The notes below the pieces were generated by a model, which worked only from the letters and a program-made list of their open reading frames with translations, was not told where the DNA came from and did not search any database. The position numbers and the translations under genes were made by a program. 21,357 bases of DNA from a virus. The stretch covers positions 1 through 21,357 of IMG/VR virus record IMGVR_UViG_3300021085_001839, one strand, 5' to 3'. Positions within the stretch are counted from its first letter, which is position 1; every line of letters begins with the position of its first letter. Of this stretch, positions 2-19,523 are shown one piece after another.

Positions 2-1297
2 AAAGGTGCAGAAATTAAAATCACTGGAGAAACTATTTTCTTTGGTGGAGGCGGAGGTGGCTCAGGCTACTCAAACATCGGTGGCGATGGCGGCCTAGGT
101 GGAGGCGGTGGCGGAGCCGTTGGAACTACTTTTGGCGGCGTAGGATATAACAACGGCGCTAATGGACCGGGCGGCGGCACAAGTACTTGGGCTAACGTAC
201 CAGGCGGCAATGCTGGCGCAAACAGTGGTGGCGGAGGTGGTGGCGGAGCTCACTATAACTCCAACAACTACGGTGGTAACGGCGGATCAGGTATTGTTAT
301 TTTAAAATACAATACAACTAACCCAACAGAAGAAACAGCACAAGGTGCATTAAGAATAAACAGTAGCACTGGCGAACCTGAATTTTACAGTTCTGATGCT
401 ACATGGCAAAGTTTAGCAATACCATTTAAAGAAAGAACACATATTACAACTAATTATATGTTAGGTGGATATAAAAGTTCAAGTGCATGGAACAATGTTA
501 ATAGATGTGCTATATCAACAGACACAACAGTTAATTTAGGCGATAATTCATTAGAACGTTCATTTAACTATCAGTCAGGTGCATGTAGTAAAAACGTAGC
601 ATGGGTATTTGGTGCAGGTAACGGACACGCTGTAACATCAAATTATGTTATAGGATTTAACATGCGTACTGATCAACAGTACACTGGTACATTTGATAGA
701 AACCTAAGCGGTGGCAAATTGCAAGACGGTACTGTGTGGAAAGAACATTATATGGCATGGACGTCTGGAAGTTCAGAACTTGATAGATATAACATGCTTA
801 CTGAAACACAATCAACTGTAGGTATTGGTGCTCCTGGCGGATCTACTTCGCAAGCATGGGGTATGAGTTGGGAAAATGAAGGAATGTTTACTAGAAATAA
901 CGATGGTACATTGTTTGATTTTACTACTGAAACATATGGTACATGGAGTGGAACTTATCCAAGTAATCATCACCAACAAAAATCAATGAATAGTAAACTT
1001 AACTATTGCTGGGCAGGTAACGAAGGTGGGTATGCAAGTGGAGCAAACTTCCGTAGAACTAACTGGACTACTAGGTCAACAGCAAACACTTACGCTAAAC
1101 CAGTAAACGGTGGTGAAGAAAACTTTACAATGGGTCAAGACCATGCTTATCAGCTAGGCTGTTTTAATGGTGCTCAAAATAATTTAAGTTTCCGTTGGAA
1201 CTATTACACAGAGTCAGGCTTCCAAGGCGGAACATCTATGGAGCCAAAAGGAAAAGCAGGATCAAGTTCAGGATTAGGAGCATGGAGAGATAACTAA
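2..1297 (+). CDS. Glycine-rich fibre-like virion protein, C-terminal part (5' end outside window)
   Basis: The reading frame is open from base 2 to the TAA at 1295-1297, giving 431 visible residues, so the ATG at 458 is internal and not the start. Visible residues 1-100 are glycine-rich (long runs of Gly with Ser, Asn, Ala) and end in GGSGIVILKY, the typical close of glycine-rich domains in marine phage fibre proteins. A short linker follows (GALRINSSTGEPEFY...WQSLA), a motif common in marine fibre proteins. A Trp/Tyr/Asn/Gly-rich domain of about 290 residues ends the protein. This last domain is clearly homologous to most of the next gene, sharing GG(Y)..., TDTT and a GGEEN...GQD block. The role is probably host recognition or virion-surface structure. 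That is inferred from composition and neighbours, not from a recognised receptor-binding family. Confidence 0.75.
   Translation, partial: KGAEIKITGETIFFGGGGGGSGYSNIGGDGGLGGGGGGAVGTTFGGVGYNNGANGPGGGTSTWANVPGGNAGANSGGGGGGGAHYNSNNYGGNGGSGIVILKYNTTNPTEETAQGALRINSSTGEPEFYSSDATWQSLAIPFKERTHITTNYMLGGYKSSSAWNNVNRCAISTDTTVNLGDNSLERSFNYQSGACSKNVAWVFGAGNGHAVTSNYVIGFNMRTDQQYTGTFDRNLSGGKLQDGTVWKEHYMAWTSGSSELDRYNMLTETQSTVGIGAPGGSTSQAWGMSWENEGMFTRNNDGTLFDFTTETYGTWSGTYPSNHHQQKSMNSKLNYCWAGNEGGYASGANFRRTNWTTRSTANTYAKPVNGGEENFTMGQDHAYQLGCFNGAQNNLSFRWNYYTESGFQGGTSMEPKGKAGSSSGLGAWRDN
46..285 (+). repeat. Low-complexity glycine-codon tract
   Basis: This stretch is a run of GGN codons (mostly GGC, GGT and GGA) encoding the glycine-rich domain of the first gene. 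It is markedly richer in G than the AT-rich surroundings. It is a coding repeat, not a separate element, and a likely place for recombination between fibre genes. Confidence 0.7.
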
Positions 1298-2328
1298 TGG
1301 CTACATTTAAAAATACAAATATTAACGATACTGGACATTTAACACTACCAGGAAGTGGTGACGGCGATGCTCCTCAAAGCGGAGATATACGTTACAATGG
1401 TAACTTTGGCAGAGTAGAAGTATATCATGACAAAGACGGTGCGCAATGGACCAACATGGCTATACCTTTCCTTACTAGGCAAATTTTAACAGTAGGTTAT
1501 ATACACGGTGGATATGCAGCTAGTGTTGTTTGGGACGAAACAAACAAGTCAATGTTTGCTACAGATACTACACTTGACTTACCAGGCAAACAAGAAAAAG
1601 GCCACAACTACAAAGACAGTATGCACAACAGAGATTTGTGTTGGACTGTAGGCGGTGCGGCTAACGCTCACTGTGCAAGCTCAAATGGTATTACATGCTA
1701 CAATCACAGAACAGAGAATAATTTAACAAGTGGATATACTAGAACACACACTTGGAGCACCAACAACATTGGTATTATCCAGCAAGGATTAGAAACAGCA
1801 TGGATAACAGGTGGCGGTAGTAGTCAAATTAGACGTTTTAATATGATTACGCAAACACTTGGCGCACAACAAGGTAATTCAAGCACATCAGGCGGTATAT
1901 GGGGCATACAACACGAAAATTACGGTATTTGGTGTACTAATAACCAAGGCTTTAAATGGGCATCTGAACAACCTTATACACGTTCAGCGACATCACCACA
2001 AGGCGACAAACACCAACACTGTATGATGTTTAAGCATGCTAACATGGTAGGCGGACGTGAAGGCAACCCAAGTTCAAACTGGAGAGAAACAAACTTTTAT
2101 AGTGATACAACGCAAGACGTTATTGGTTCAAAAGGTTACTATGGCGGCGAAGAAAATATGCTCGCAGGTCAGGATTGGGGCTATGCTGTAGGTTGGTATC
2201 AAGGGTCACACGTTGTAAGTAGTGCAAAGTTTGTATATGCAACAAGATCAAGTGCCACTGGCGGCGCAAGTCTTAATGCTAAAGGAGTTAATGGTCAAAG
2301 TTCAGCAACGATGAGCTGGAGAGATTAA
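1297..2328 (+). CDS. Fibre-like protein, paralogue of the upstream gene's C-terminal domain
   Basis: This 343-residue protein begins at an ATG that shares its A with the upstream stop (TAATG), so translation is probably coupled. Residues 1-55 form a short head (MATFKNTNINDTGHLTLPG, then SGDIRYNGNFGRVEVY...QWTNMAIPF), like the linker in the preceding gene. The remaining residues align by eye with the preceding gene's C-terminal domain. Matches include HGGYAASVVW against GGYKSSSAW, TDTTLDLPG against TDTTVNLGD, GGEENMLAGQDWGYAVG against GGEENFTMGQDHAYQLG, and terminal SWRD against AWRDN. The pair looks like a tandem duplication that has diverged. The repeated short strands and many Trp and Gly residues would suit a beta-rich fold, perhaps a propeller, but no family is recognised. 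A virion-surface role is inferred. Confidence 0.75.
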   Translation: MATFKNTNINDTGHLTLPGSGDGDAPQSGDIRYNGNFGRVEVYHDKDGAQWTNMAIPFLTRQILTVGYIHGGYAASVVWDETNKSMFATDTTLDLPGKQEKGHNYKDSMHNRDLCWTVGGAANAHCASSNGITCYNHRTENNLTSGYTRTHTWSTNNIGIIQQGLETAWITGGGSSQIRRFNMITQTLGAQQGNSSTSGGIWGIQHENYGIWCTNNQGFKWASEQPYTRSATSPQGDKHQHCMMFKHANMVGGREGNPSSNWRETNFYSDTTQDVIGSKGYYGGEENMLAGQDWGYAVGWYQGSHVVSSAKFVYATRSSATGGASLNAKGVNGQSSATMSWRD

Positions 2329-2331
2329 CTT

Positions 2332-2339
2332 GGTAAATA
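2332..2339 (+). promoter_or_regulatory. Probable late promoter (GGTAAATA)
   Basis: GGTAAATA matches the T4-type late promoter octamer (TATAAATA) at TAAATA and fits the GATAAATA form found elsewhere in this window. By T4 spacing the transcript would start near 2345, about 25 nt before the ATG at 2370. AAGGAG at 2358-2363 provides the Shine-Dalgarno sequence. Confidence 0.5.
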
Positions 2340-2369
2340 TATACGTATATAACAACCAAGGAGTTTAAT

Positions 2370-3236
2370 ATGACAACAGACGTGCAAAATATTGACCGTA
2401 GAAAACAATATATGTCTGACCACAGATATCATAGTAAAATTAATACTGATGTATCTATGTTAGGAGATGTTGAAAAAGACGCAATCAGCTACGCAATCAA
2501 TAAGGAATGGACTAATCCAAAGTTCAAGTTGAGATGGTTTGTAGGTCAAGCTCAAATTACACCTTATAGTAAATTAAGACAGTATTTGCTTGAAATCAAA
2601 TCTAAAGAAGAATCAATTGAAAATATTGAATATGAAATTGCAAAATATGACGTAGAAGTTAGACGTTTTAAACGCATGGCAGAAGAAGCACACGACGAAT
2701 TAGACAGGGAACTAGCGTCAGTAGAATCATGGAATGCTGAACGTAATCACATTATGAGTAAACGTAGACTACAAGATTGGTATTTAGAAAGACAACACTT
2801 GCTTGATCTATTGCAAGAGTTTATTGAAAGCGATGAAGCACAATTACCAGATGGTAGCGGCCGCACATATATGGACATTCTAAATACAGACGAAGAAGAT
2901 ATTTATGAAGCACAATATTGGACCAACAGACTTGCAAAACAAGCTGCAACTGATATGATCTTTTATGGTCGCATTGGTACAGGTAATATGGATGCTATTT
3001 TAAGTGTTGGTTCAGAACAGCAGGCTGAAATACTGGCATTAACAATGAATTATAGTACACAATTACAGAGCTATAATTTACAGTTACAATCAGCAGCCGA
3101 AGAAAATTTAAAGCTACACGGTGGCGTAGATAATAAAGATCTTTTAGCACCTACTGATAAATACAGTAAGATAGAAAATCCAACATCAACAACCGGAGGC
3201 TCTGAGGAGACAATAAATGACATATATAATGTTTGA
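2370..3236 (+). CDS. Predicted coiled-coil phage protein, unknown function
   Basis: This is a 288-residue acidic, charged protein with no family that I recognise with certainty. The middle (about residues 70-160) is a long charged helix with heptad-like spacing (KSKEESIENIEYEIAKYDVEV, then a second segment to DLLQEFIES), so a coiled coil is likely. Residues 185-215 hold a tidier segment (YWTNRLAKQAATDMIFYGRIGTGNMDAIL). The C-terminus is polar and probably disordered. The start has AAGGAG at a 6-nt spacing and lies behind a probable late promoter, which suggests late expression and a structural or assembly role. There is no signal peptide or membrane segment. It overlaps the next gene by 20 nt. 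Confidence 0.75.
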   Translation: MTTDVQNIDRRKQYMSDHRYHSKINTDVSMLGDVEKDAISYAINKEWTNPKFKLRWFVGQAQITPYSKLRQYLLEIKSKEESIENIEYEIAKYDVEVRRFKRMAEEAHDELDRELASVESWNAERNHIMSKRRLQDWYLERQHLLDLLQEFIESDEAQLPDGSGRTYMDILNTDEEDIYEAQYWTNRLAKQAATDMIFYGRIGTGNMDAILSVGSEQQAEILALTMNYSTQLQSYNLQLQSAAEENLKLHGGVDNKDLLAPTDKYSKIENPTSTTGGSEETINDIYNV

Positions 3237-3750
3237 AACAGTAGCAAGCAATGATCCTAGACTTGTACCAGAAATAGAAATGATAGGCAATGACTGGCAT
3301 TTTACTTTTGCTAAAGTTACAGGCACTCCTCAAATTGATTGGTTAAACCCTACAACAATTACAAAGGAAATGTTTGATGCAAGAAACTTTACTAACTCAC
3401 TTGATGGTGAAGTTGGTATTATGAGATCAGTAACTGACCCTGCAGACATTATACAGCCAACAAGTTTTGGTGATAACGATTATGAAAAAGTTGCATACAG
3501 ACTTAATTCAATTGATGAATCAAACACTGTAGCATTGTTAAAAGCTCAAATGTTAAATTGGGCAGAAAATAACTTTGATGATGAATCGGGTCGTATTCAA
3601 ATTAGAGCGCAAGTTCCAGGGCTAAGAACATTAAAAGAAACACAAATGTATATGGCTACGTACTTTGAATGGGAGTGTGCGTACACACATCAACTAGATA
3701 AAGAACCTCAGTTTGAAACTAAGAAGTTTTCTCAAACATTATACGATTAA
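3217..3750 (+). CDS. Conserved-looking phage protein, unknown function
   Basis: This is a 177-residue acidic soluble protein that I do not recognise. Its ATG at 3217 lies inside the end of the preceding gene (20 nt overlap) and has GAGGAG 7 nt upstream. A second in-frame ATG at 3229 is possible but has no comparable ribosome site. Visible features are an aromatic N-terminal segment (IGNDWHFTFAKVTG), an acidic centre and a helical segment (NTVALLKAQMLNWAENNFDDE). There is no membrane segment or catalytic motif. Co-transcription with the coiled-coil gene from a late promoter points to a structural or assembly function, which is inference only. Confidence 0.7.
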   Translation: MTYIMFETVASNDPRLVPEIEMIGNDWHFTFAKVTGTPQIDWLNPTTITKEMFDARNFTNSLDGEVGIMRSVTDPADIIQPTSFGDNDYEKVAYRLNSIDESNTVALLKAQMLNWAENNFDDESGRIQIRAQVPGLRTLKETQMYMATYFEWECAYTHQLDKEPQFETKKFSQTLYD

Positions 3751-3754
3751 TCAC

Positions 3755-3783
3755 TTTACTTTTTAATTAAAAGGTGCTATAAT
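3755..3783 (+). promoter_or_regulatory. Possible sigma-70-type promoter for the halogenase cassette
   Basis: TTTACT (3755-3760) lies exactly 17 nt before TATAAT (3778-3783), giving 4/6 and 6/6 matches to consensus. If used, it would start the 3824-9731 cassette with host-type (early or middle) timing. It overlaps the 5' arm of the terminator hairpin, and AT-rich sequence yields chance TATAAT boxes, so confidence is moderate. Confidence 0.4.
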
Positions 3784-3809
3784 AAGTATAAAGTATAGTG
3801 CCTTTTTTT
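3769..3809 (+). terminator. Probable intrinsic terminator
   Basis: A 13-bp hairpin with two G-U pairs forms between 3769-3781 (AAAAGGTGCTATA) and 3794-3806, with a 12-nt loop. A run of T follows from 3803 to 3809. It lies 18 nt after the stop of the preceding gene and would close the 2370-3750 unit before the halogenase cassette. Confidence 0.6.
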
Positions 3810-3823: not shown

Positions 3824-5539
3824 ATGAGAAAAATTTTTAGTATACCTCTAAATCCTAAGTTATCAAATGAACAGTATGTTGAGTTTGTTAATTTTATTGG
3901 AGAATACAAAGATCACATTAAAGATGTGTATTTTACATGCAGGATTGCTCCATTTGCACAAGATGCTATGGGCGATATTTTTGTACAAGATGATGATTAT
4001 CAACTTGCTATAGAACAAGCACTGTTTGTACAAAAACAAACAGGTGTTCCAGTAAGTGCTACATTTAATAATATTCAGGTTCCGCCTAGTCAAAAAAATC
4101 TAGATATTTTTATAAAAAACTTTAAACCTGTATATGATGCAGGAGTACGTGTTGCTACTATACCGCATACACATTGGATGGCTACAGGACAAATACAAAA
4201 AGCATTTCCGGAATTATATATAAAAAATACTATACTACGAGACGTAAGAATAGCGTCAGAAATTGTAAGTTTAGCAAAGTATGGGTTTGATTATATAAAC
4301 CTTGATAGAGATCTTATGCGTGATAGAGATACGCTATTACGTCTTAAAGAAGCAAAGGTGTGGATTAAAGAAAACTACGGCAAGGACATACACTACAGTC
4401 TTTTAGCAAATGAAGGTTGTAAAGGTAGTTGTCCAATGATGGTCGAACATTTTGAATACAATAATACTAGAGCAGGACAAGAAGCACAATATTTTAATAA
4501 TCCTATTAGTAGAGTAAGTTGTCCTAAATGGGACGTTGACGATCCTAGTATACATTTAAAGACAGCTAATATAACTCCGTGGAGAGAAGATTGGGAAGAA
4601 TACCTTAATGAATTAGGTATTGATGTATTTAAAATGCACGGTCGCGAAGCGGTTAGTAGACTATACGAAACTATGGATATTGTAAAACGCTGGGCAAATG
4701 GCGAAGCGTTACTGTATGATAACTTTGAACAATATTTAGAAAGCACAAACTTAAAAGATAAGCCTATTGATGCATGGCGTAAAAAAATTAAAAACTGTAA
4801 GTTTGATTGTTGGGAATGTCATTTTTGTGATGATATTTACAAGATTAAATCTAAAATTGAACATACTGATAAAGTTAAACATGTAGCAGAGAGCATACTA
4901 ATAAGTGGCGTACCAACAGTAAACACTCGTATACCTGGGCTTACAAGTCCGCGAGTTCAAACAGTATTAAATCATATTGCAAGTGGTTCTACACATTACA
5001 TGGAAGTAGGCGTAGCACAAGGAGCAACGTTCTGTGGTGCAATTAAAGACAACAATTTAAATGCTGTAGCAATTGACAACTGGCAGGAAAACATACAACC
5101 TGCTGATCCAAATGCACCTAAGTTACCGCATAATGAAAAACAAAACTTTTTAAATAATTTAGAATCTTATAAGCAGGATAATACTGTTGATGTAATTGAT
5201 AATGATTTATTTGAAGCTGATGTATCACAGTACAACCGTAAAATAGACATGTTCTTTTATGACGGGCCTCATGATGCAACAAGTACAGAACAAGCTGTAC
5301 TACATTATAAAGATGTATTTGCACAAGAAGCTGTATTAATATTTGATGATGCAAATTGGCAAGGAGTTGTCGAAGGCGCACGTAACGGAATAAACAAAGC
5401 AGGATTTGAAGTTGCATATGAAAAAATGTTGTTATGTGATGTAGAAGATTTAGAAAGTTGGTGGAATGGATTGTACATAGTTGTACTTTCTAAACCTAAA
5501 GAAGAATTAATATCAATTGAGGAAATAACAGAATGGTAA
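3824..5539 (+). CDS. Cysteine-rich (U32-like?) barrel fused to a class I SAM methyltransferase
   Basis: This 571-residue protein has two parts. Residues 1-345 look like an alpha/beta barrel with cysteines in metal-site arrangements: Cys39, Cys199-x3-Cys203 (NEGCKGSCP), Cys233 (RVSCPKWD), then a tight CKFDCWECHFC cluster (Cys325, 329, 332, 335). The order and context recall the Fe-S U32 proteins (UbiU/UbiV group), but this is a weak, from-memory resemblance. Residues 375-555 are a methyltransferase domain of the Methyltransf_24 kind. It shows the SAM motif MEVGVAQG (Glu394, Gly396, Gly400), AIDNW (Asp418), MFFYDGPHD (Asp480, His483) and VLIFDDANW (508-509). The gene has GGAAAG upstream and overlaps the halogenase gene by 7 nt. 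The substrate is unknown. Genes for modified metabolites or peptides often carry such enzymes beside halogenases and oxygenases. Confidence 0.7.
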   Translation: MRKIFSIPLNPKLSNEQYVEFVNFIGEYKDHIKDVYFTCRIAPFAQDAMGDIFVQDDDYQLAIEQALFVQKQTGVPVSATFNNIQVPPSQKNLDIFIKNFKPVYDAGVRVATIPHTHWMATGQIQKAFPELYIKNTILRDVRIASEIVSLAKYGFDYINLDRDLMRDRDTLLRLKEAKVWIKENYGKDIHYSLLANEGCKGSCPMMVEHFEYNNTRAGQEAQYFNNPISRVSCPKWDVDDPSIHLKTANITPWREDWEEYLNELGIDVFKMHGREAVSRLYETMDIVKRWANGEALLYDNFEQYLESTNLKDKPIDAWRKKIKNCKFDCWECHFCDDIYKIKSKIEHTDKVKHVAESILISGVPTVNTRIPGLTSPRVQTVLNHIASGSTHYMEVGVAQGATFCGAIKDNNLNAVAIDNWQENIQPADPNAPKLPHNEKQNFLNNLESYKQDNTVDVIDNDLFEADVSQYNRKIDMFFYDGPHDATSTEQAVLHYKDVFAQEAVLIFDDANWQGVVEGARNGINKAGFEVAYEKMLLCDVEDLESWWNGLYIVVLSKPKEELISIEEITEW

Positions 5540-7041
5540 AAAAGATAGTAATATTTGGCGGTGGAACTAGTGGCTGGCTAACAGCAGCATACCTAACTAA
5601 TAACTTAATTGATCCTGTTGAAATACAACTAATTGAAGATGCATCAAAAGGACCAATTGGAGTTGGAGAAGGAACACAGCCTCTTACAGCCTCTTTTTTA
5701 TATAAATGTGGAATAGAAGCAAAAGACTGGATGAAACCTAGTAATGCTTCATTTAAGTATGGAGTAGAATTAACAGGCTGGAACGATGAGCCGTATTTTG
5801 TAGATAATGATGTTGTTGATAATGTTTTACCTGCACCGCATTTACCAGTAAGCAAATACTTTGTAGACAAGCCTTACAGCGAATTCGCAAAATGGCATCC
5901 AGCATATAGACTAGCAAAAAACAATACAGCAACTAAAATTGACGATGCAACTGATATTAATTTTAACGTAGGTCTTGATAGTTATGGTGCTGTACATTTT
6001 AGTGCTTATGATATTATTGCTACTGTTAAAGACTTAATACTACATAAAATTAATTATGTTAATACTAAAATTACACAGATAGGTAGTGATGTAAATGGTA
6101 TTACAAAACTAATTGACGAAAACAATAACGAGTACACTGGTGATTTGTATATTGATTGTAGTGGATTTCAATCCTTGCTATTAGGAAAAACATTAAAAGA
6201 GCCTTTTATAAGTTATGACAAATGGTTAATAAATGATAGTGCTGTTGCAATGCCAACACAATATACTAATCCTGAAGAAGAATGTTTTCCGTATACAAAA
6301 GCAACTACAATGAAAGCAGGGTGGCGCTGGACTATTCCTACATACCATCGTGTTGGCAATGGATATGTATATAGTAGTAAACATATAACTCCAGAGCAAG
6401 CAGAAGCAGAATTGCGTGAAGCTATTGGAGAATATGATGCTCCTGCTAATCATTTAAAAATGCGTATAGGATCACATCAAAATATTTCTGTAAAAAATGT
6501 TATTGCTGTTGGACTAAGTGCCGGGTTTGTTGAACCGTTAGAAGCAACAGGCATCACATTTACTACAGCATTAGTTACATCTTTTGCAGACTTAATGAAT
6601 CGCACACGTAATGAATGGACTGAGCAACCACAATCAATGCTTAATCGAGGCTTCTATGAAATGAATATAGAAATCTTAACATTTATATTTGCACATTATT
6701 ACTTTAGTAATAGAAATGATACTCCGTATTGGCAAGAGATAAGATCACAAAGTTTAAATGACTTACCTGATGATGCACAAATGATGATGAGCCAATATTA
6801 TCCTAACATACCAGACTTTGTATTTTTTAGTCCTGGTAGTATGTTTAGTAGTATACAATGGTGGTCAATGTTGCATGCTGGCGGAGCATATCCAGATGCA
6901 AAATCTACTCTTACTGATAAGCAAAAACAATATGTAGAACACTTTATGAAAGTACAAGATCTACGTGTTGAAAGTTCAAAAGAATTATTTGGCAATCATT
7001 ATAAATTTTTAGATAAATGGTACAGTGAATGGAAAGAGTAA
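5533..7041 (+). CDS. Flavin-dependent (tryptophan-halogenase-family) halogenase
   Basis: This 502-residue protein is close to the usual family length and has the expected motifs in order. They are the FAD-binding GGGTSGW (residues 9-15), GVGEGT (43-48), the lysine in FKYG (Lys75, matching catalytic Lys79 of PrnA/RebH), the diagnostic WxWxIP (WRWTIP, 264-269) followed by YVYSS, and SAGFVEPLEATGI. The Glu of PLE (Glu337) matches the PrnA active-site glutamate. Known members use FADH2, oxygen and halide to make hypohalous acid that the lysine directs to an electron-rich substrate. A cyanophage member, VirX1, is known to favour iodination of varied substrates. No flavin reductase is encoded in the window, so host reductant would be needed. 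The ATG overlaps the upstream gene by 7 nt. The substrate cannot be predicted. Confidence 0.92.
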   Translation: MVKKIVIFGGGTSGWLTAAYLTNNLIDPVEIQLIEDASKGPIGVGEGTQPLTASFLYKCGIEAKDWMKPSNASFKYGVELTGWNDEPYFVDNDVVDNVLPAPHLPVSKYFVDKPYSEFAKWHPAYRLAKNNTATKIDDATDINFNVGLDSYGAVHFSAYDIIATVKDLILHKINYVNTKITQIGSDVNGITKLIDENNNEYTGDLYIDCSGFQSLLLGKTLKEPFISYDKWLINDSAVAMPTQYTNPEEECFPYTKATTMKAGWRWTIPTYHRVGNGYVYSSKHITPEQAEAELREAIGEYDAPANHLKMRIGSHQNISVKNVIAVGLSAGFVEPLEATGITFTTALVTSFADLMNRTRNEWTEQPQSMLNRGFYEMNIEILTFIFAHYYFSNRNDTPYWQEIRSQSLNDLPDDAQMMMSQYYPNIPDFVFFSPGSMFSSIQWWSMLHAGGAYPDAKSTLTDKQKQYVEHFMKVQDLRVESSKELFGNHYKFLDKWYSEWKE

Positions 7042-7604
7042 ACCTTTTTCGCTCTGACTTCTTTGTAGGCAGAGTAGGCAATGAAAATCAAATAGCTGAT
7101 CTTAGCAAACAAATGTTAGTATCACAAGAGTCTAATGCTGGTGCAATTGCTAATAGCAACGACGGATGTTGGCGAAGTACAGTTAAGTATGACAACATAG
7201 ATTGGCTTTTAGATGGAGTTAAGGTATTAACAGAGAATGCAATAGACTACTATTCATCTTTAGATTCAACGTTTAAGAACCATATAACTAAGAATCATAT
7301 TAGTATTGACTACTGGTCAAACATTAATAAACCTGCAAGTAGAAACGTGTTGCATAGTCATGTAGCAGATACTTTTGCAGCTGTTTATTATGTACAAGGT
7401 TCTAAGACAGGTCCTTTAAAATTTATAAATCCTGCAAATGTACTAAATGATTGCAATTCAGTAAGTCCGTTTGTACGTGAAGTATTAGTCCATCCACATG
7501 ATGGAGAATTAATATTATGGCCTGCATGGGTTCCTCATGAAGTCGAAGTAAATAAATCAAACAGAGATAGAATGAATATAGCATTTACAATACAGGTATC
7601 TTGA
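7029..7604 (+). CDS. 2-oxoglutarate/Fe(II)-dependent oxygenase
   Basis: This 191-residue protein fits the 2OG-FeII_Oxy_5-like family. Residues 106-122 read NVLHSHVADTFAAVYYV, matching the family pattern N..H.H......VYYV. His109 and/or His111 would provide the first iron ligands. PLKFINP follows, then GELILWPAWVPHEV with the distal ligand His170, and NRDRMNIAF where Arg181 would bind the 2-oxoglutarate carboxylate. Such enzymes hydroxylate or otherwise oxidise small molecules, amino acids or protein side chains. Phage members are common in marine T4-like genomes and their targets are mostly unknown. The gene starts 13 nt inside the halogenase gene, so the two are probably translated together and may act on one pathway. 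That link is inference. Confidence 0.85.
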   Translation: MERVNLFRSDFFVGRVGNENQIADLSKQMLVSQESNAGAIANSNDGCWRSTVKYDNIDWLLDGVKVLTENAIDYYSSLDSTFKNHITKNHISIDYWSNINKPASRNVLHSHVADTFAAVYYVQGSKTGPLKFINPANVLNDCNSVSPFVREVLVHPHDGELILWPAWVPHEVEVNKSNRDRMNIAFTIQVS

Positions 7605-8341
7605 TGTTTAAAAAGCAAGAAAAAATAGAATTTTTTAGTAAGATTGACGGGGTAGCAGACGCTTACCCTATTATTCCTGCTAATAAATTTAGGCCAAAAT
7701 GGATGTCTCGTTGTAAACAAAATTACATTGATAATAAAGATAGAAACTTGCCAAGTCATTTATATCAATGCCCGGGCATATTTGATCTATACAATTATGG
7801 ATTTATATTACCTTTATGGCACGATGTAATAATTAAGACACAAGGCGGACAGCCAGGATTTCAATATGTTAATCCAAGTGAAACATTATCTAAATTACTT
7901 GAAGGTGATCCTGTTACTAGTCAACCACCGGATATATCTAGATGGTTACCAAAAAGACCTCATAGCATCGAAGCTATAGTAAAATTTAATACTCCGTGGC
8001 ATGTAGTTACTCCTAAGAATGTTAAATTGTTAATTACACCAATTGCATATCCGGATACTTTTGAATTCGAATCTTCTATAGGCGTACTTGATCCTGCAAT
8101 TAATACAGAATTAAATATACAAGGATTTTGGAATGTTCCAAATGGTGAACGGAAGTTATCGGCAGGAACTCCAATAGCACATATTATACCGTTGACAGAG
8201 CAAAAGTATGATCATGTAATAAGAGAAATGACTCAAGAAGATTGGAAGTTTTTTAAAAAACGTTTGTTCTGGGGAACACATTCTTTTAAACATAAAAAGT
8301 CTTTAATGAAAGACATGTATAAAAAGCATTTTAGGAGATAA
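7604..8341 (+). CDS. Unknown protein of the halogenase cassette, paralogue of the 8750 gene
   Basis: This is a 245-residue protein from the ATG at 7604, which forms a TGATG overlap with the oxygenase stop. A TTG three bases upstream is a less likely start. It aligns by eye over its length with the protein at 8750-9514. Shared segments are the K(I/V)EF start, P(I/V)(I/V)PA.K, CPG......G(F/W)IL..W.D..(I/V)KT, TPW.V..PK...LL..P..YPD, and L(N)(I/V)Q..W followed by AGTP(I/L)A. The C-terminal half should be beta-rich. Its layout loosely resembles DUF6065-type proteins, but I cannot confirm membership. No catalytic motif or membrane segment is visible. The C-terminus is strongly basic (KHKKSLMKDMYKKHFRR). 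The position inside the cassette suggests a role with the halogenase and oxygenase, perhaps as a substrate-binding partner, which is speculative. Confidence 0.75.
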   Translation: MFKKQEKIEFFSKIDGVADAYPIIPANKFRPKWMSRCKQNYIDNKDRNLPSHLYQCPGIFDLYNYGFILPLWHDVIIKTQGGQPGFQYVNPSETLSKLLEGDPVTSQPPDISRWLPKRPHSIEAIVKFNTPWHVVTPKNVKLLITPIAYPDTFEFESSIGVLDPAINTELNIQGFWNVPNGERKLSAGTPIAHIIPLTEQKYDHVIREMTQEDWKFFKKRLFWGTHSFKHKKSLMKDMYKKHFRR

Positions 8342-8343
8342 TA

Positions 8344-8757
8344 ATGCCGTTAACAGAAACTAATACAAATGAATTTGTAACTTACACTCAAAAACTAAGA
8401 GAAGCTAAAGACCAATATACAGAACGTAAAGTACAAAAAGATAGAATAAAACATGTAGGTTGGTTTAATGCTGTATTATCACAAAAAGATATAGTGCTAA
8501 CATATAAAGAAGATGGCGAGTCTATACAAGTTATTGCATCAAAGAATGGCAATGGTGTTAGCCCGTTACCTCAGCCACCTATTACAATAGAAAATGTATT
8601 AGGCGAAGATCGAGAAGAAGTACATCATATTGTGTTTTATACATCACCGCAAGGAGATACTAAAGTTGTACATATAGACGATGTTGAATGTTGGGTAGTC
8701 ACTAACACAATGATGAATCAAATAGACAAAATTTATAAAAGGTCAATAAATGTTTAG
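8344..8757 (+). CDS. Small unknown protein within the halogenase cassette
   Basis: This 137-residue protein is not recognised. The ATG at 8344 follows the previous stop by 2 nt and has AGGAG at 8332-8336. Residues 1-35 are charged and helical (YTQKLREAKDQYTERKVQKDR). The remainder looks like alternating beta strands (DIVLTYKEDGESIQVIASKNG, then EVHHIVFYTSPQGDTKVVHIDD). There are no membrane segments and no obvious active site. It lies between the two paralogous genes and overlaps the second by 8 nt, so it is part of the same translated unit. Confidence 0.65.
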   Translation: MPLTETNTNEFVTYTQKLREAKDQYTERKVQKDRIKHVGWFNAVLSQKDIVLTYKEDGESIQVIASKNGNGVSPLPQPPITIENVLGEDREEVHHIVFYTSPQGDTKVVHIDDVECWVVTNTMMNQIDKIYKRSINV

Positions 8758-9514
8758 TTGGTTTAAGAAAAAACCTAAAGTAGAATTTGTCTGTTTATTT
8801 CCAGAAATAAAAGAAGTAATGCCTGTTGTTCCAGCAAGTAAAATAAAGTTTAAATGGGTAAAGACAGCAATAGACGACTGGAAGAAAACACAAGAAGAAA
8901 TGAAAGACACTCCTGTTAAGTTAACACATTTTGCTAGATGTCCTGGCATGCACAAAATTATGCGTGAAGGTTGGATATTACGTAGCTGGTGTGACTTTAC
9001 AGTTAAAACTGACGGTGACGGAAAGACATTTCAATGGGGGTCTCCGGTTTCTCAAAAAAATATGGATGCAGATCATATTTGGAAATGGGACTATTTGTCG
9101 CATCATGCAGAATCTATATTTGGTCAAACAGATAAAAGAAATACACTAGATACTGTTCTTAAAGTGCAAACACCTTGGATTGTATATGTTCCAAAAGGAT
9201 ATTACTTATTATGCATGCCTTGTCCTTACCCAGACAATCATAGCTTTACAGCAGCAACTGGATTTATAGATGGCGACGAAGGACCAAATTTTTTAAATGT
9301 ACAGTTATACTGGCATGAATTAGATGGAATAACAAAAATTCCTGCAGGTACTCCTCTAGCACAATATATGCTTGTTAAAAAAGATAGTATTAAAGGCGAT
9401 GTAAGAAGCGTAACTGACAAAGATATAAAAAATCTACGTTTACGATCAACTATATTAGACAATCGTTTTATTGTAGATTATAAACCGTTAAAGGAAGTAA
9501 AGTGGCATGAGTAG
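8750..9514 (+). CDS. Unknown protein of the halogenase cassette, paralogue of the 7604 gene
   Basis: This 254-residue protein is a divergent duplicate of the 7604-8341 product; the shared blocks are listed there. Compared with its partner it has more cysteines (CPGM, WCDF, CMPCPYPD) and lacks the long basic tail. The well-kept features are VKTDGDG, QTPWIVYVPKGYYLL, PCPYPD and KIPAGTPLAQ. An intact copy of each paralogue in one operon suggests different partners or a heteromeric complex, but the sequence does not show which. The start overlaps the previous gene by 8 nt, and the end overlaps the next by 8 nt. No enzymatic function can be assigned. Confidence 0.75.
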   Translation: MFSWFKKKPKVEFVCLFPEIKEVMPVVPASKIKFKWVKTAIDDWKKTQEEMKDTPVKLTHFARCPGMHKIMREGWILRSWCDFTVKTDGDGKTFQWGSPVSQKNMDADHIWKWDYLSHHAESIFGQTDKRNTLDTVLKVQTPWIVYVPKGYYLLCMPCPYPDNHSFTAATGFIDGDEGPNFLNVQLYWHELDGITKIPAGTPLAQYMLVKKDSIKGDVRSVTDKDIKNLRLRSTILDNRFIVDYKPLKEVKWHE

Positions 9515-9731
9515 TTTTCATAAAGTTGAAATTTGTACTATGATGGATCGAGACAACAAGATAGGAAATGATGCACACGCTAATTGGCTGCGCTGGTCAG
9601 TACAACACAGACGTATGGCAAATTTTAGAATACAACTTAGTCACTGTAAGACATATGTAACTATGAGTGACGGCGAAGCTTTTAACTATTTCAAAAGACA
9701 TTGGACATATTACAACCGAATCTTATATTAA
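9507..9731 (+). CDS. Small protein ending the halogenase cassette, unknown
   Basis: This is a 74-residue basic, aromatic-rich protein (NWLRWSVQHRRMANFRIQLSH, then FNYFKRHWTYYNRILY). The ATG lies 8 nt inside the preceding gene, so it would be made by coupled translation. Arg and His content would suit a nucleic-acid or protein contact, but no domain is recognised. It is the last gene before a late promoter that opens the structural block. Confidence 0.55.
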   Translation: MSSFHKVEICTMMDRDNKIGNDAHANWLRWSVQHRRMANFRIQLSHCKTYVTMSDGEAFNYFKRHWTYYNRILY

Positions 9732-9737
9732 CATACA

Positions 9738-9745
9738 GATAAATA
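9738..9745 (+). promoter_or_regulatory. Late promoter (GATAAATA)
   Basis: GATAAATA followed by C differs from the T4 late octamer only in its first base and is identical to the octamer upstream of gp13. With T4 spacing the start would be near 9751, giving a 17-nt leader before the ATG at 9768, with an AGGA ribosome site in between. It opens the 9768-15690 structural block. Confidence 0.7.
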
Positions 9746-9767
9746 CTACTGTAGATAGGAACTTAAT

Positions 9768-11260: not shown

Positions 11261-12538
11261 ATGCCAAGATATAGTTCAGCAAGTTCCCTACAATATTTTC
11301 AGCCTATACTTAAACCTTTTAAATTATTAAAATATTTAGAAAATCCAAATGAAGAAGGCATTGCACAATCAGATGCATTTGGCACTACTGTTGCAATAGG
11401 TCCTAATCATATTGCTGTAGGAGCACCTGGCGAACAAGGCACATCAGGAGTACCATCACAAGGTATTGTTTACATTTACACTTCTACAGGTACATATCTA
11501 AGAACAATAGTAAATCCAAATCCAGTAGCACCTATAAATGCAGGTGATGGAGATTTGTTTGGCACAAGTGTTGCTGTTAATACAGGATACGTTATTGTAG
11601 GAGCACCGGGCGAAAATGATGCTACTGATAATAACGGTAAAGCATACGTATTTGATATAACTGACGGAAGTTTAGTATATACGTTTAATGATCCAAATCC
11701 TAATACAACAGAAATTAATGCAAATGGAGATGCATTTGGTAGTACTGTTGCACTTACTGAAGACTATGCAAGTGTTTGTGCATATAGAGAAAACGCTGTA
11801 GGGCTAGGCGACGATACAGGTTGGACATACATCTTTGATTTATCAAACGGAAACTTAGATCACTCTATTGAAAATCCAAACTTAGATGGTGAAGATGAAT
11901 ATCCAGGTGACCAAATTGGTGAAAAGATTAATACACTTGCTATTACTGATACATGGACAATGATAGGCAACTGGAGAGAAAATGAACCAGGTGCATTAGG
12001 ACAAGGCGATAGTGGTGCATTCTTCCTATTTAATAACTCTACAGGTGCTGCTGATCAATCAATTTATAATCCAAAAGATGATGCACTTGACGGAGATGAT
12101 AGATTTGCTTATGCTGTAGACTTAAATGAAAATTATGCTGTAGTAGGTTGTCCCGGTGAGGACAGTGAAGCTACAAACAGTGGTAGAGTATATGTATATA
12201 ATCCAACAAACGGAAGTTTAGTATCTACAATACAAAATCCTAATACATACGGTACCGCAAATAATGATAGATTTGGTGAATCTATTGCACTAACAGATAA
12301 TTATCTTGCTGTAGGAGCGTTGGAAGAAGATGACGATAATGGTACAGCAAGTGGCGTTATACATATTTTTAGTACAACGGACTGGAGTTACCAAAATACT
12401 ATAACTAATCCAAATAAATATACTACTAGCACTAGTGATAGATTTGGCTATACTATAAGAGCAACTAATGATTATCTAGTAACAGGTGTTCCTGCTGAAA
12501 ATCAAGGTAGTGGTGCTGTTTATATTTTTAAGGCGTAA
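11261..12538 (+). CDS. Seven-repeat FG-GAP (integrin-alpha-like) beta-propeller protein
   Basis: This 425-residue protein contains seven copies of a 45-65 residue repeat. Each copy centres on D.FG..(V/I)A......VGAPGE and is followed by a strand like G.(V/A)Y(V/I)(F/Y). Copies one, two, five, six and seven are well conserved; three (SVCAYRE) and four (MIGNWRE) are diverged. Seven FG-GAP copies make a closed propeller of the integrin alpha type. The loops between copies are rich in Asp and Asn (DGDGD, ANGD, DDDNG), as in calcium-binding FG-GAP cages. No signal peptide is present. It lies 5 nt after the fibre gene and 3 nt before the protease gene. It is probably a virion-surface adhesin or glycan-binding protein, inferred from fold and position. 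Confidence 0.85.
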   Translation: MPRYSSASSLQYFQPILKPFKLLKYLENPNEEGIAQSDAFGTTVAIGPNHIAVGAPGEQGTSGVPSQGIVYIYTSTGTYLRTIVNPNPVAPINAGDGDLFGTSVAVNTGYVIVGAPGENDATDNNGKAYVFDITDGSLVYTFNDPNPNTTEINANGDAFGSTVALTEDYASVCAYRENAVGLGDDTGWTYIFDLSNGNLDHSIENPNLDGEDEYPGDQIGEKINTLAITDTWTMIGNWRENEPGALGQGDSGAFFLFNNSTGAADQSIYNPKDDALDGDDRFAYAVDLNENYAVVGCPGEDSEATNSGRVYVYNPTNGSLVSTIQNPNTYGTANNDRFGESIALTDNYLAVGALEEDDDNGTASGVIHIFSTTDWSYQNTITNPNKYTTSTSDRFGYTIRATNDYLVTGVPAENQGSGAVYIFKA

Positions 12539-12541
12539 TAC

Positions 12542-14110
12542 ATGGAAAAAGAATACATTGTAGTAGTACATAGAGGAATTGATATAGAAGCATTTGATGC
12601 AGAATTAGCTGCAAGTTCTGGTGCAGGCCCAATACCAAATAGAAGTGTAGATATAGCAAATCCAAGAGCTGGTTCAAAGCGTATGACACATTGGATGCTT
12701 ACTGACGAAGAAGCGTCAACATTACAAAATGACGAAAGAGTATTATCAGTAGAAATACCACCAGAACAACGAGACGATATTGAACTAATAAAAAATGCAT
12801 CACAAACTGGCGTATTTTATAGAACAATTTCAGGAGCTGCACTAACAACACCAAGTTATGTGAATTGGGGGCTAAGACGCTGTATAGAAACAACTAATGT
12901 ATATGGTAGTAATAATACTGTTGCAGGCGACTACAACTATGCGTTAGACGGAACAGGTGTAGACGTAGTAATACAAGACAGCGGCATTGATCCTAATCAT
13001 CCTGAGTGGGAAGATAAAGATGGTGTCAGTAGATTACAACAAATTGACTGGTATACAGAAAGTGGTCTTCCTGGAACACAAAGCACAAACTATTATAGAG
13101 ATGCTGATGGTCACGGAACACATTGCGCAGGTATAGCTGCAGGCAAAACATACGGTTGGGCAAAGGGCGCACACATTTATTCTCAAAAGTTAGGAGGCCT
13201 AGAAACATTGTCAGGAAGTGACGGTACTGGTACTTCAATTAGTGATGCGTTTGATGCTATACGATTATGGCACAATGCTAAGACTAATAGCCGTCCTACA
13301 GTAGTTAACATGAGTTGGGGCTACGGATCAAACCAAACTAGTGATCCAATAAGTGGTACTTATAGAGGTACAGCATGGACATACGGAGTTGAATATACTG
13401 ATAGAGGCGGACTATGGGCCGCAACTGGAGTTAGTAGATTGTTTTTTGGTAATAATAGAGTACCAGTAAGAGTACCGTCAGTAGATGCAGAAATAGAAGA
13501 TATGATTGACGCTGGTATACATGTATGCATTGCCGCAGGAAATAATAGATATAAAGCAGACTTACCAACAGGCCTTGACTTTGATAATGAAGTAGTGTTT
13601 AGTGGTGGAACATACCAATATCATCGAGGTAGTTCTCCATTTAGTAATGAAGCATTTATGGTAGGTAATATAGACGCTGAAGTAAATTCAGGTGTTGATA
13701 GAATAGCAGGAAGTTCTACAAGAGGTCCTGGAATAAACATATATGCACCAGGTGATAATATAATGAGTACGTCTAGTGTACTTGCAGACGCTGTGTATTC
13801 GTTGCTAGACTATCCTGGTAACAGTACATATAAAATTATGAGTATTGGCGGCACATCAATGGCATCGCCACAAGTAGCAGGAGTATGTGCTTTACATTTA
13901 CAAGTGCAGCCTGACTTAACACCAGGACAGTTACAGGACAAAGTTTTTAGTGACACTAAAAATGTAATAAGTACTACAGGTTCTGATACTGATTATGATG
14001 ATTACATTAATAGTTTATTAGGTGGACCAAACAGAATGTTATACAGTAGACATGGATCATTAAACACATGGGCTATTACAGGAACGATAAATATTAGTGG
14101 AGGCTCTTAA
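12542..14110 (+). CDS. Subtilisin-like serine protease (S8 family)
   Basis: This 522-residue protease has the full triad in order: Asp146 (VIQDSGID), His191 (DGHGTHCAG) and Ser439 (GGTSMASPQVAG). The oxyanion Asn334 lies in AAGN, and NMSWG (256-260) is the substrate-binding strand. Residues 1-80 (KEYIVVVHRGID..., VLSVEIPP) resemble an I9-type propeptide, the chaperone and inhibitor removed on activation. There is no signal peptide, so it acts in the phage-making cell or from the particle, not by secretion. The placement between a propeller and a fibre gene suggests a virion protease that processes fibres or degrades host surface proteins. Subtilases occur in other marine T4-like phages. It overlaps the next gene by 1 nt (TAATG). 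Activity is likely; the target is unknown. Confidence 0.92.
   Translation: MEKEYIVVVHRGIDIEAFDAELAASSGAGPIPNRSVDIANPRAGSKRMTHWMLTDEEASTLQNDERVLSVEIPPEQRDDIELIKNASQTGVFYRTISGAALTTPSYVNWGLRRCIETTNVYGSNNTVAGDYNYALDGTGVDVVIQDSGIDPNHPEWEDKDGVSRLQQIDWYTESGLPGTQSTNYYRDADGHGTHCAGIAAGKTYGWAKGAHIYSQKLGGLETLSGSDGTGTSISDAFDAIRLWHNAKTNSRPTVVNMSWGYGSNQTSDPISGTYRGTAWTYGVEYTDRGGLWAATGVSRLFFGNNRVPVRVPSVDAEIEDMIDAGIHVCIAAGNNRYKADLPTGLDFDNEVVFSGGTYQYHRGSSPFSNEAFMVGNIDAEVNSGVDRIAGSSTRGPGINIYAPGDNIMSTSSVLADAVYSLLDYPGNSTYKIMSIGGTSMASPQVAGVCALHLQVQPDLTPGQLQDKVFSDTKNVISTTGSDTDYDDYINSLLGGPNRMLYSRHGSLNTWAITGTINISGGS
14086..14093 (+). promoter_or_regulatory. Internal late promoter (GATAAATA) inside the protease gene
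   Basis: GATAAATA followed by T lies in the last codons of the protease gene. T4 spacing puts the start at about 14099, an 11-nt leader beginning with GGAGG (14099-14103), just before the ATG at 14110. The tight fit to the next gene argues it is used, though coding constraint could also produce it. Confidence 0.55.
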
Positions 14111-15690
14111 TGGCATTAAATTTTCCAGCAACACCAAATGTAGACGAAACATTTACTGACGGCACAACTACGTGGGTTTGGGACGGCACTTCTTGGAACG
14201 TAGTTTCAGGTGGTGGTATTTCTGCAGAACAACCAGATGCATTTAAAACATTTACAGCAGACTCGGGTACTACTACAGCAGACGACGAAAATGACTCATT
14301 TGCTATTAGCGGCGGCACCAATATCGAAACAACAATAAGTGGCGATGAAGTAACAATAGACTTTAACGGCTCTGTTGGTGATCCTGATCAAAATATCTTT
14401 TCTCAAATTGATGCAGATGCAGGATCATTATCGGCCTCTGCACCGACTAGTACAATAACTATTGCAGGCGGTACTGACGTAACAACAAACATAGTAGGTA
14501 ACACACTTACAATTAATGGTTCAACGCCTACACTAAGCATAACCGATTTAACAGACGTAGATACTACAAATACAACACCTGTTGCAGGTAATGTGTTAAA
14601 ATGGGATGGTGCAAAATGGTCACCAGGACTTGATGCAACAACAGGTGGCGGCGGCACTGATGCTGACACATTAGACGGTCAAGATAGTACATATTTTTTA
14701 AATTATAATAACTTACAAAATACACCAACTATACCAGCAGATGTAAGCGACTTAACTGACACTACATCTTTATTATTCAGCGGAGTATTTGCAGACTTAA
14801 CTACTAAACCAACTACTATAGCAGGTTACGGTATTACTGACGCATTTGACGGATCATTTTTAAACTTATCAAATGTACCTACTACAATATCAGGTTACGG
14901 CATTACTGATGCTGTTGTGGACTTTGCAGACTTAGGCACAACTCCAACTACTATATCAGGATACGGAATAACAGATGCACTTAGTACAAGTTCTAATTTA
15001 TCAGCATTAGCAGACGTAGATACTACAGCACCAGCTACAGGTCAAGCACTTGTATGGGACGGTGACTCGTGGGGACCAGACACAGTAAGTGGTGGAGGCG
15101 GCGATCCAGATCAGAATGTGTTTACAACAATATTTGGTGATGCTGGATCATTAACAGCGGCCACTACAACATCAACTTTTACAGTACAAGGTGGTACAAA
15201 TATTAATACTACAGTAGCAGGTAATAATGTACGTGTTGATTTTTCAGGAGCATTAGGTGTTGACAAGTATGACGATTTAGAAGAAGTTGTACGTACTGGT
15301 AGAACAATTGACAAAAGTTATACATCAGCTTTTGCAATGATTAGAATGAATAATGCAGGTAACTCTGCTTATACTGTTGATAGTCACGGATATAGTGGAA
15401 ATAATCCTACGTTGTATGCAATTGGCGGAATGACTATTGCATTTGATTTAGATCAAATAGGCGGCCATCCATTTGAAATACAAGACGGTACAGGCACAGC
15501 ATATAATACTGGCCTAATACATGTAGATATTATTGGTAATGTTTCAACTGGTACAAACGCACAGGGTAAAGATGGCGGAACATTGTATTGGGAAGTGCCA
15601 GAGACTATCTCAGGTGGTTACAGATATCAGTGTACATTGCATCCTGCAATGGTAGGTGCTATAACTATTAAACGTATATCACTACTGTAA
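14110..15690 (+). CDS. Repetitive fibre protein with C-terminal amicyanin-like cupredoxin domain
   Basis: This 526-residue protein starts with the fibre-type head MALNFPATPNVDETFTDG followed by WVWDG..W. It is built from duplicated modules. One is GDPDQN(I/V)F...DAGSL...TST.T..GGT at about 90 and 331. Another is DVDTT...G..L.WDG..W.P at about 149 and 302. A third is a triple PTTI.GYGITDA repeat at 234-290. ADTLDGQDSTYFLNYNNL (185-202) is typical of T4-like tail-fibre shafts. Residues 420-526 form a separate beta domain with GGHPFEI (His453) and YQCTLHPAMVG (Cys508, His511, Met514). This is the His-Cys-His-Met set of type-1 copper proteins, with C-x2-H-x2-M spacing as in amicyanin. It is likely a late virion fibre, and copper binding is testable. 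It converges on and overlaps the next, minus-strand gene by 9 nt. Confidence 0.8.
   Translation: MALNFPATPNVDETFTDGTTTWVWDGTSWNVVSGGGISAEQPDAFKTFTADSGTTTADDENDSFAISGGTNIETTISGDEVTIDFNGSVGDPDQNIFSQIDADAGSLSASAPTSTITIAGGTDVTTNIVGNTLTINGSTPTLSITDLTDVDTTNTTPVAGNVLKWDGAKWSPGLDATTGGGGTDADTLDGQDSTYFLNYNNLQNTPTIPADVSDLTDTTSLLFSGVFADLTTKPTTIAGYGITDAFDGSFLNLSNVPTTISGYGITDAVVDFADLGTTPTTISGYGITDALSTSSNLSALADVDTTAPATGQALVWDGDSWGPDTVSGGGGDPDQNVFTTIFGDAGSLTAATTTSTFTVQGGTNINTTVAGNNVRVDFSGALGVDKYDDLEEVVRTGRTIDKSYTSAFAMIRMNNAGNSAYTVDSHGYSGNNPTLYAIGGMTIAFDLDQIGGHPFEIQDGTGTAYNTGLIHVDIIGNVSTGTNAQGKDGGTLYWEVPETISGGYRYQCTLHPAMVGAITIKRISLL
14788..14979 (+). repeat. Three in-frame GYGITDA repeats
   Basis: Three imperfect copies of 19 codons lie at 14788-14844, 14857-14913 and 14923-14979, spaced by 69 and 66 nt. 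They encode (F)(A/L)(D/N)L..(K/V/T)PTTI(A/S)GYGITDA. The period is compatible with repeated strands in a trimeric fibre shaft. The DNA copies differ mainly at synonymous positions, so the repeats are old or under protein-level selection. Confidence 0.8.
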
Positions 15691-15948: not shown

Positions 15949-16305
15949 CTATCCTATGTTATTTGAAGGTAATACTATAAAAGTATCTTTTTCAAAATCA
16001 CCATTACTGGATTCTGTTATAGAACTATCAGCTACTACTGCTTCTAAACAACACGGCATTAACGGCATTACATGATGTGTTTGACCTTCACCTAACACAG
16101 TTTCAAATAGTTTTCCTGTGTCTGTATCTATCCATCTTAACTTAAAATTGCCTGTATTTACAAACCAAGTTTTTTCTTTTTTAACATTAAAGAAGAAATT
16201 TGTTCTACTACCAGCACCAGTAAATGCTAATATTTTTGTGCAATAATCATTGGTTCTAGCAATTGTTAATTCGTGTCCCCAATCTTGTTTCTGTACGTCA
16301 CTCAT
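15949..16305 (-). CDS. Cupin-fold protein lacking the usual metal ligands
   Basis: This 118-residue protein follows the pattern of the small cupins common in marine phages: WGHE......YC.KIL.F..., then K.TWFV..G.F.LRWIDT.TG and a late I.ESSNGD...D. In functional relatives, as I recall them, the first motif reads H.H...-ETW and the second has a histidine after P. Here these positions read FFFNVKKEKTW and PLMPCC, so the two histidines and glutamate of motif one and the histidine of motif two are all absent. It is therefore a cupin shape without a normal metal site. The role may be structural or binding rather than catalytic. It overlaps the Nudix gene by 8 nt and shares its direction and probable transcript. 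Confidence 0.65.
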   Translation of the reverse strand: MSDVQKQDWGHELTIARTNDYCTKILAFTGAGSRTNFFFNVKKEKTWFVNTGNFKLRWIDTDTGKLFETVLGEGQTHHVMPLMPCCLEAVVADSSITESSNGDFEKDTFIVLPSNNIG

Positions 16306-16738
16306 TTTCGTCTATTACCTTTAGTACTTCAATTATTGTTTTTAACTTATTTTGTATTGTTTTATTTTGTAGTGTATTTCTTAAACCGTGATGTAATGGC
16401 TTTGGCCATTGTCCTGTAGTAACCCATGCATAGCCATCATGTTCATTATTAAGTTGCGGTATAAATTCATTTTCGACTACAATTAGATATGTATGAAAGG
16501 AAAAGTAATTGTCATTGCTAACAAAACTTTCTAGAGGAAGTATTTTAGTATAATCTACATTACCTATTTCTTCTTGAACTTCGCGTTTAAGTCCTTCCCA
16601 AGGAGTTTCGGCACTTTCATTTTTTCCACCAACAAGGCCCCAAGAAACATTAGACTTGTTTCCTGTTCTGTGTAAAAATAAAAATCTTTCTGTATTTAAG
16701 GAGTAGAATAATGCTCCACTACAAACAATCTCTTTCAT
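16298..16738 (-). CDS. Nudix hydrolase
   Basis: This 146-residue protein carries a complete Nudix box, GX5EX7REUXEEXG, at residues 38-59. The elements are G38, E44, R52-E53 and E56-E57, then G59. The glutamates coordinate the divalent metals that assist cleavage of nucleoside diphosphate-linked substrates. The substrate could be an oxidised or damaged dNTP, a nucleotide sugar or a dinucleotide; the sequence does not decide. A VSWGLVGG segment just before the box is usual for the family. The gene lies 8 nt after gp15, transcribed with it, and overlaps the cupin-like gene by 8 nt. A nucleotide-pool or host-signalling role is inferred. Confidence 0.9.
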   Translation of the reverse strand: MKEIVCSGALFYSLNTERFLFLHRTGNKSNVSWGLVGGKNESAETPWEGLKREVQEEIGNVDYTKILPLESFVSNDNYFSFHTYLIVVENEFIPQLNNEHDGYAWVTTGQWPKPLHHGLRNTLQNKTIQNKLKTIIEVLKVIDENE

Positions 16739-19518: not shown

Positions 19519-19523
19519 GATAC

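Follow-up and report, generated by a model that had tools for sequence, protein, structure and literature searches.

Flavin-dependent halogenases encoded by phages are already known (PMC3037559, PMC10452541), and the active site of one of them, VirX1 of cyanophage Syn10 (PDB 6QGM), is large and readily accessible (reviewed in PMC8407142). Clusters of halogenases with oxygenases have also been described: according to Iyer et al. (PMC7824862), jumbo cyanophage clusters of the S-SSM6a type combine a halogenase, 2-oxoglutarate (2OG) oxygenases, a methylase and carbamoyltransferases, and a role in decorating the host's surface or capsule was proposed for them. Here we describe a halogenase cassette at positions 3824-9731 of IMG/VR record IMGVR_UViG_3300021085_001839, a 21,357-base fragment of an uncultivated tailed phage (the window, i.e., the whole stretch of DNA analyzed). 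A family scan of the window proteins placed the cassette among fiber, baseplate-connector, sheath-stabilizer and neck genes. Four of its genes form a conserved core whose products probably halogenate, hydroxylate and methylate a target, as predicted from their sequences. An earlier sequence-only reading of the window had described seven genes, their overlaps and the halogenase motifs, and all of these were confirmed from the open reading frames. The genes and the fiber block upstream of them are as follows:

3824-5539, plus strand: gene A, 571 amino acids (aa), fusion of an N-terminal domain with an S-adenosylmethionine (SAM) methyltransferase; phrog_1458, homologue of cyanophage T4-GC 354.
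5533-7041, plus strand: gene B, flavin-dependent tryptophan-type halogenase, 502 aa, catalytic motifs intact.
7029-7604, plus strand: gene C, 2OG-Fe(II) oxygenase (PF13759), 191 aa, by profile match and conserved residues.
7604-8341, plus strand: gene D, phrog_7084 protein, dUTPase-like fold expected from its paralogue F; ATG 7604 preferred over TTG 7601 as the start.
8344-8757, plus strand: gene E, 137 aa, no family match.
8750-9514, plus strand: gene F, phrog_7084 paralogue, predicted dUTPase/dCTP deaminase fold (AlphaFold model).
9507-9731, plus strand: gene G, 74 aa, aromatic-rich C-terminus, no family match, found in the nearest clade only.
1297-3750, plus strand: fiber block t1-x1-x2 (sericin-like fiber and two partners), upstream of A, syntenic with the cyanophage T4-GC 351-353 block.

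Gene A overlaps the halogenase gene by 7 nt, the halogenase gene overlaps gene C by 13 nt, and C overlaps D by 1 nt if D starts at ATG 7604 or by 4 nt if it starts at TTG 7601. A 2-nt gap separates D and E, and the E/F and F/G junctions are 8-nt overlaps.

A first scan of IMG/VR and an alignment-based scan yielded 81 viral loci, which fall into 48 clusters when the halogenases are grouped at 90% identity, and neighbors were counted in 44 non-redundant relatives with 1.5 kb on both sides (halogenase 48-100% identical). The loci were collected via the halogenase, so the counts tell how many halogenases have partners, not how many partners have a halogenase. Within 1.5 kb of the halogenase, gene A was found in 42 out of 44 relatives, the 2OG oxygenase in 40/44 and phrog_7084 in 39/44; one copy of phrog_7084 is present in 33 of the 48 clusters and two copies in 9. 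Gene E lies near the halogenase in 22/44 relatives (1.5 kb) or 26/43 (3 kb), gene G was detected within 5 kb in 8/37, and all seven genes occur together in the nearest clade only. The expectation that the seven genes would co-occur was thus borne out for a four-gene core (A, halogenase, 2OG oxygenase, phrog_7084), and "seven" overstates the unit. The neighbors do not vary at random, the outcome named in advance as speaking against a cassette: the core is present in 39-42 of 44 relatives, and halogenase divergence is correlated with that of A and that of phrog_7084 (r = 0.88 for both, 0 of 500 permutations). With x1, a gene of the flanking fiber block, the correlation is also high (r = 0.84), which points to co-inheritance of the region and is not proof of interaction. 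The t1 fiber gene is located within 5 kb of the halogenase in 34/37 relatives. The dN/dS values of A, the halogenase, C, D and F (~0.05-0.12, approximate because dS is near saturation) indicate that these genes are under purifying selection. We concluded from the sequence comparisons that the four-gene core is no chance assembly.

The gene B product matches Trp_halogenase (PF04820) with E = 1.4e-90 and 304.8 bits against a curated cut-off of 21. In alignment with VirX1 and others, the motifs GGGTSG, K75, W264-R-W266-T-I-P and E334/E337 are intact, and by these features the protein is a flavin halogenase. Among solved structures, tryptophan halogenases and VirX1 come closest to it. It shares GxGxxG, WxWxIP and the catalytic Lys and Glu with the free-tryptophan halogenases PrnA, RebH, PyrH and Thal; in contrast to these enzymes, it has no adjoining indole or pyrrole pathway, and the alignment to most of them ends at about residue 410-430 of 502. 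A pattern-limited scan of 85k genomes found three distant bacterial relatives (23-27%) and no bacterial donor. The gene C product matches 2OG-FeII_Oxy_5 with E = 2.8e-14 and 53.7 bits (cut-off 27), and columns H109, H111, H170 and R181 (alignment numbering) are invariant in 104 out of 104 homologues. In gene A, the Methyltransf_24 match covers residues 394-509 and the methyltransferase domain is confidently predicted in the structural model. The N-terminal domain of the model alternates beta and alpha elements (TIM-barrel-like), with poorly predicted Cys-rich loops, and carries seven invariant Cys (C199, C203, C233, C325, C329, C332, and C335). The motifs FKMHGR and NEGC-G-CP suggest a U32-type Fe-S domain akin to the hydroxylation proteins UbiU, TrhP and RlhA, but the profile similarity is not significant: 30 members of the gene A family gave no Pfam match to Peptidase U32 up to E = 1, and hhalign comparison of the N-terminus with UbiU, TrhP and RlhA gave probabilities below 10% (E 0.004-0.04; negatives 0.05 and 0.6). 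The assignment is retained as a lead only.

The two paralogues of the sequence-only reading, D and F, both match phrog_7084 (1e-38 and 2e-45, respectively) and are thus true paralogues. The AlphaFold model of F has a predicted local distance difference test score (pLDDT) of 85, and its top Foldseek matches in the PDB are all dUTPases or dCTP deaminases (Dcd) at a probability of ~1.0, with a best E of 2e-4 and TM by target mostly 0.4-0.6; viral structural matches include adenovirus dUTPase-like proteins. Sequence profiles are less telling: a dUTPase profile stayed below cut-off on the phrog_7084 family (E 0.06-0.08 in two relatives only), and a 16-member profile (A1) searched against PDB sequences reached dUTPases only at E ~1. 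Neither D nor F matches DUF6065 (PF19541), whose cut-off is reached only by the HSTV-2 relative (35.7 vs 26.6 bits); a distant relationship of the family to DUF6065 is predicted. Nine residues are invariant in phrog_7084 (W36, H60, C64, D82, K138, W143, G171, D174, and Q185). As read from the alignments, D174, together with G171, stands at the Asp position of dUTPase motif 3, whereas the Tyr usual for that motif is not conserved and the invariant Gln185 stands where dCTP deaminase has its Glu. Nucleotide hydrolase activity of D and F thus appears unlikely. The earlier suggestion that the paralogues could be substrate-binding partners is compatible with the modeled dUTPase-like fold, which lacks most of the hydrolase motifs. 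In the haloarchaeal virus HSTV-2 (L023), a phrog_7084/DUF6065 relative at 8893-9762 lies beside thymidylate synthase, without a halogenase, and perhaps reflects a nucleotide-related ancestor.

A second arrangement was found in cyanophages Syn10, S-CREM1, P-TIM40 and S-RIM44, in which one or two halogenases are followed by phrog_7084 and then a row of 2OG oxygenases (up to eight in S-CREM1), near fiber genes; the S-RIM44 set sits before neck genes. Some members of these sets are annotated as hypothetical in some records and were assigned by our own profiles. The halogenases are ~30% identical to that of the window. Of the Syn10 halogenase genes, the one overlapping phrog_7084 is VirX1 itself. 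It resembles the window halogenase in family, in being phage-encoded, in its position directly upstream of phrog_7084 and in the nearby 2OG oxygenases; it differs in sequence (~30-34% identical), and Syn10 has a second halogenase. Whole-genome searches found no gene A in any of these four phages. Conversely, Syn19, P-HM2 and S-CAM4 carry gene A, and whole-genome searches found neither halogenase nor phrog_7084 in them. In these three phages A adjoins fiber genes, being preceded by a sericin-like fiber and an x1 homologue (with a weak x2 match in P-HM2), so that the T4-GC 351-354 block (Syn19, P-HM2) of fiber, two partners and A matches t1-x1-x2-A of the window. By this comparison gene A is part of an older fiber block common to cyanophages without a halogenase, and since the A block and the halogenase/phrog_7084 set are separate in the tested isolates, the window lineage joins two modules. 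The S-SSM6a-type clusters likewise bring a halogenase together with 2OG oxygenases and a methylase; unlike the window, they are built on carbamoyltransferases and sugar enzymes, and a DUF6065-like partner is not mentioned in the accessible part of that description (PMC7824862). Of the window proteins that were scanned, none was recognized as a carbamoyltransferase, a sugar nucleotidyltransferase or a glycosyltransferase.

Transcription signals also set the cassette apart from its surroundings. The following elements were located:

3755-3783, plus strand: sigma70-type promoter TTTACT-17-TGCTATAAT with an extended -10, for the cassette (promoter scoring).
3769-3809, plus strand: 13-bp hairpin, arms 3769-3781 and 3794-3806, T-run 3803-3809; the -10 element overlaps the 5' arm.
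9739-9745, plus strand: T4-type late-promoter-like ATAAATA, 23-29 nt before fiber gene f1 (9768), at the end of the cassette's transcriptional territory.

A sigma70 score of at least 11 was obtained upstream of A in 21 out of 43 relatives, compared with 1.3% of random stretches; no such score was found for f1, f3, t1 or x2, and only 1/42 for x1. The late motif has the opposite distribution. ATAAATA stands just upstream of f1 in 26/37 relatives, of f3 in 22/28 and of x1 in 14/42 (1.1% of random stretches), and was not found upstream of A (0/43), the halogenase (0/44), the 2OG oxygenase (0/43) or phrog_7084 (0/40). Its whole-window counts are below chance, and it is informative only by its position before structural genes across relatives; the exact sequence TATAAATA is absent from the window. 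The hairpin has z = -3.5, calculated on the identical sequence of L001. Across 14 relatives, 15 cells had changes on both sides, a value as high was seen in 0/500 shuffles, and 91% of cells were paired; these relatives, however, were selected by eye for having the hairpin, and one of them was the source of the structure, so that control (b) favors the hairpin. It is a probable intrinsic terminator of the upstream fiber unit with the cassette promoter embedded. The sequence-only reading had placed the cassette inside a structural region, and fiber and other structural genes do flank it; given its own sigma70-type promoter and the late motifs on the flanking structural genes, it is not simply part of a late structural operon, and is predicted to be a separate transcription unit in the window lineage. 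Roughly one relative in two lacks the promoter, and those without it are mostly the more distant relatives. Syn10 and S-CREM1 differ from the window in having an ATAAATA late motif ahead of the gene that precedes their halogenase(s). The timing prediction therefore holds for the window lineage only.

We interpret the cassette, at a probability of about 0.4, as an oxidative tailoring module that aquatic T4-like phages inherit as a unit and that acts on a macromolecular target, with D and F as binding or docking partners. FADH2 (reduced flavin adenine dinucleotide) would be supplied by the host, and the halogenase would make hypohalous acid, which may react with an electron-rich aromatic group by way of K75; hydroxylation of the same target would fall to the 2OG enzyme and its methylation to gene A. 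D and F, presumably no ordinary dUTPases, would either bind the substrate and present it or provide docking for the halogenase. Two features would favor a macromolecule, such as a tail-fiber protein or the glycan it meets, over a natural product built freely: the module keeps its place beside the fiber block, and scaffold genes are missing. The large, accessible active site described for VirX1 (PMC8407142) adds to the case for this interpretation. The sequence-only reading had seen no scaffold-forming gene in the window, and the AMP-binding domain is also absent from 13 relatives' contigs (fragments of 57-246 kb). These contigs hold no Flavin_Reduct (PF01613) either; the host could supply the flavin reductase, so the missing linked gene does not disqualify the halogenase.

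Several observations weigh against this interpretation of the cassette. The sigma70 promoter, distinct from the late promoters, suits host-directed enzymes equally well or better. Cyanophage fiber-proximal regions are insertion hot spots, which makes position alone weak evidence. The Trp content of the neighboring fiber is not higher where a halogenase is present, and in three controls without the halogenase it is 1.8-3.1%; a Trp-rich fiber was thus rejected as a substrate marker, since t1-like proteins show the same range without it. In L010-L014 and L052-L056 a 59%-identical halogenase adjoins a DNA polymerase and has no partners in the contig fragments. Relatives of phrog_7084/DUF6065 occur in haloviruses and bacteria with no halogenase nearby, and none was seen near the bacterial DUF6065-like loci of Rhizobium, Sinorhizobium and Azospirillum. 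A narrower proposal, in which halogenation, hydroxylation and methylation would take place on aromatic residues of the receptor-binding fiber of the phage itself, with dUTPase-fold proteins repurposed as substrate receptors and with this as the natural job of VirX1-type enzymes, is rather doubtful.

Tailoring of a host metabolite, in which a host aromatic (e.g., indole, a pigment precursor or a signal) would be halogenated and hydroxylated early in infection, is a possible reading and comes close behind the macromolecular target. The cassette's own sigma70-type promoter suits it, since the genes would probably be expressed by the host RNA polymerase before or apart from the late genes; members of the halogenase family use free indoles and other small aromatics (PMC8407142), and published guesses for cyanophage halogenases of this kind point the same way (PMC10452541, PMC9964418). 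The constant attachment to the fiber block and the lack of scaffold and reductase genes in the 13 contigs argue against it, and a DUF6065-like partner together with the eight 2OG enzymes of S-CREM1 would be unusual for one metabolite. We consider it unlikely that the module serves surface-glycan decoration or superinfection exclusion by finishing a sugar- or amino-acid-derived decoration on the surface or capsule of the host. The S-SSM6a-type gene content described above fits such a role, as do S-SSM7, whose halogenase lies among carbamoyltransferase and sugar genes, and L012, where nucleotidyltransferase, cupin and HAD-like genes lie close to the halogenase (by-eye sequence reading), but the scan of the window proteins identified none of the three transferase types named above and the Nudix hydrolase is on the opposite strand. 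Still less probable is mere co-location, i.e., functionally separate accessory genes that gather beside fiber genes and are inherited vertically. The separation seen in the tested cyanophages (three with A only, four with halogenase and phrog_7084 only) would agree with this, and HTVC008M, with the order 2OG-halogenase-terminase, has a halogenase without A or phrog_7084. Against it stand the joint occurrence of halogenase, phrog_7084 and 2OG oxygenase in two lineages at ~30% identity, the translational overlaps and the 39-42/44 conservation.

Other halogenase genes were noted during the survey. An additional divergent halogenase (~21-30% identical) lies on the opposite strand at L017:14508-15986, L072:13913-15400 and L075:13375-14964, and in L035, L039 and L041 (minus strand); the L017 copy adjoins a Nudix gene, and some extra halogenases have lost motif residues. 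Trp-halogenase-like genes are also present in human-fecal and Campylobacter phage records (MT835646, MT837902, and four Campylobacter phage records). Two genes downstream of the solo halogenase and DNA polymerase of L012, at 14290-14997, is a ferredoxin-NADP-reductase-like gene (by-eye reading), possibly a phage-encoded flavin reductant. Gene G was considered as a peptide substrate and rejected: it is missing near most halogenases, and at 10-19% identity its homology to the small cyanophage genes at the same place is not evident.

A cyanophage origin of the window was also rejected. No psbA-type gene was found in the 13 contigs, and the window neck protein has its closest matches (45%) in jumbo phages, for example PA5oct and Phosso, so the window is not obviously cyanophage. 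Elsewhere in the window, Nudix and cysteine-dioxygenase-like (phrog_7851) genes occupy 15949-16738 on the minus strand and are found at the same place on the opposite strand in relatives. Among the fiber genes, 11261-14110 codes for a protein with FG-GAP-like repeats (by-eye reading) followed by a subtilase (PF00082, 1e-32), which is interrupted by an insertion in some relatives. Two divergent ATAAATA late-type motifs lie at 19511-19531 between oppositely oriented neck-region genes, and the minus-strand gene there probably starts lower than the listed ATG 19649.

In the literature searched, which mostly excluded subscription papers such as the original VirX1 paper, we found no description of the A-halogenase-2OG-phrog_7084 core, the VirX1 link or the promoter. 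New here are the conserved cassette, its dUTPase-fold partner, which also stands beside VirX1, and the promoter logic. VirX1 is a biocatalyst, and the cassette bears on the natural substrate of phage halogenases: a phrog_7084 partner that stands beside halogenases in two phage lineages, directly after VirX1 in one case, offers a handle on that substrate, and the fixed four-gene core, its promoter and its position narrow the possible targets and the time of expression. If the fiber is indeed modified, phages would have a further, new means of changing host recognition, with a virus chemically editing its own adhesin.

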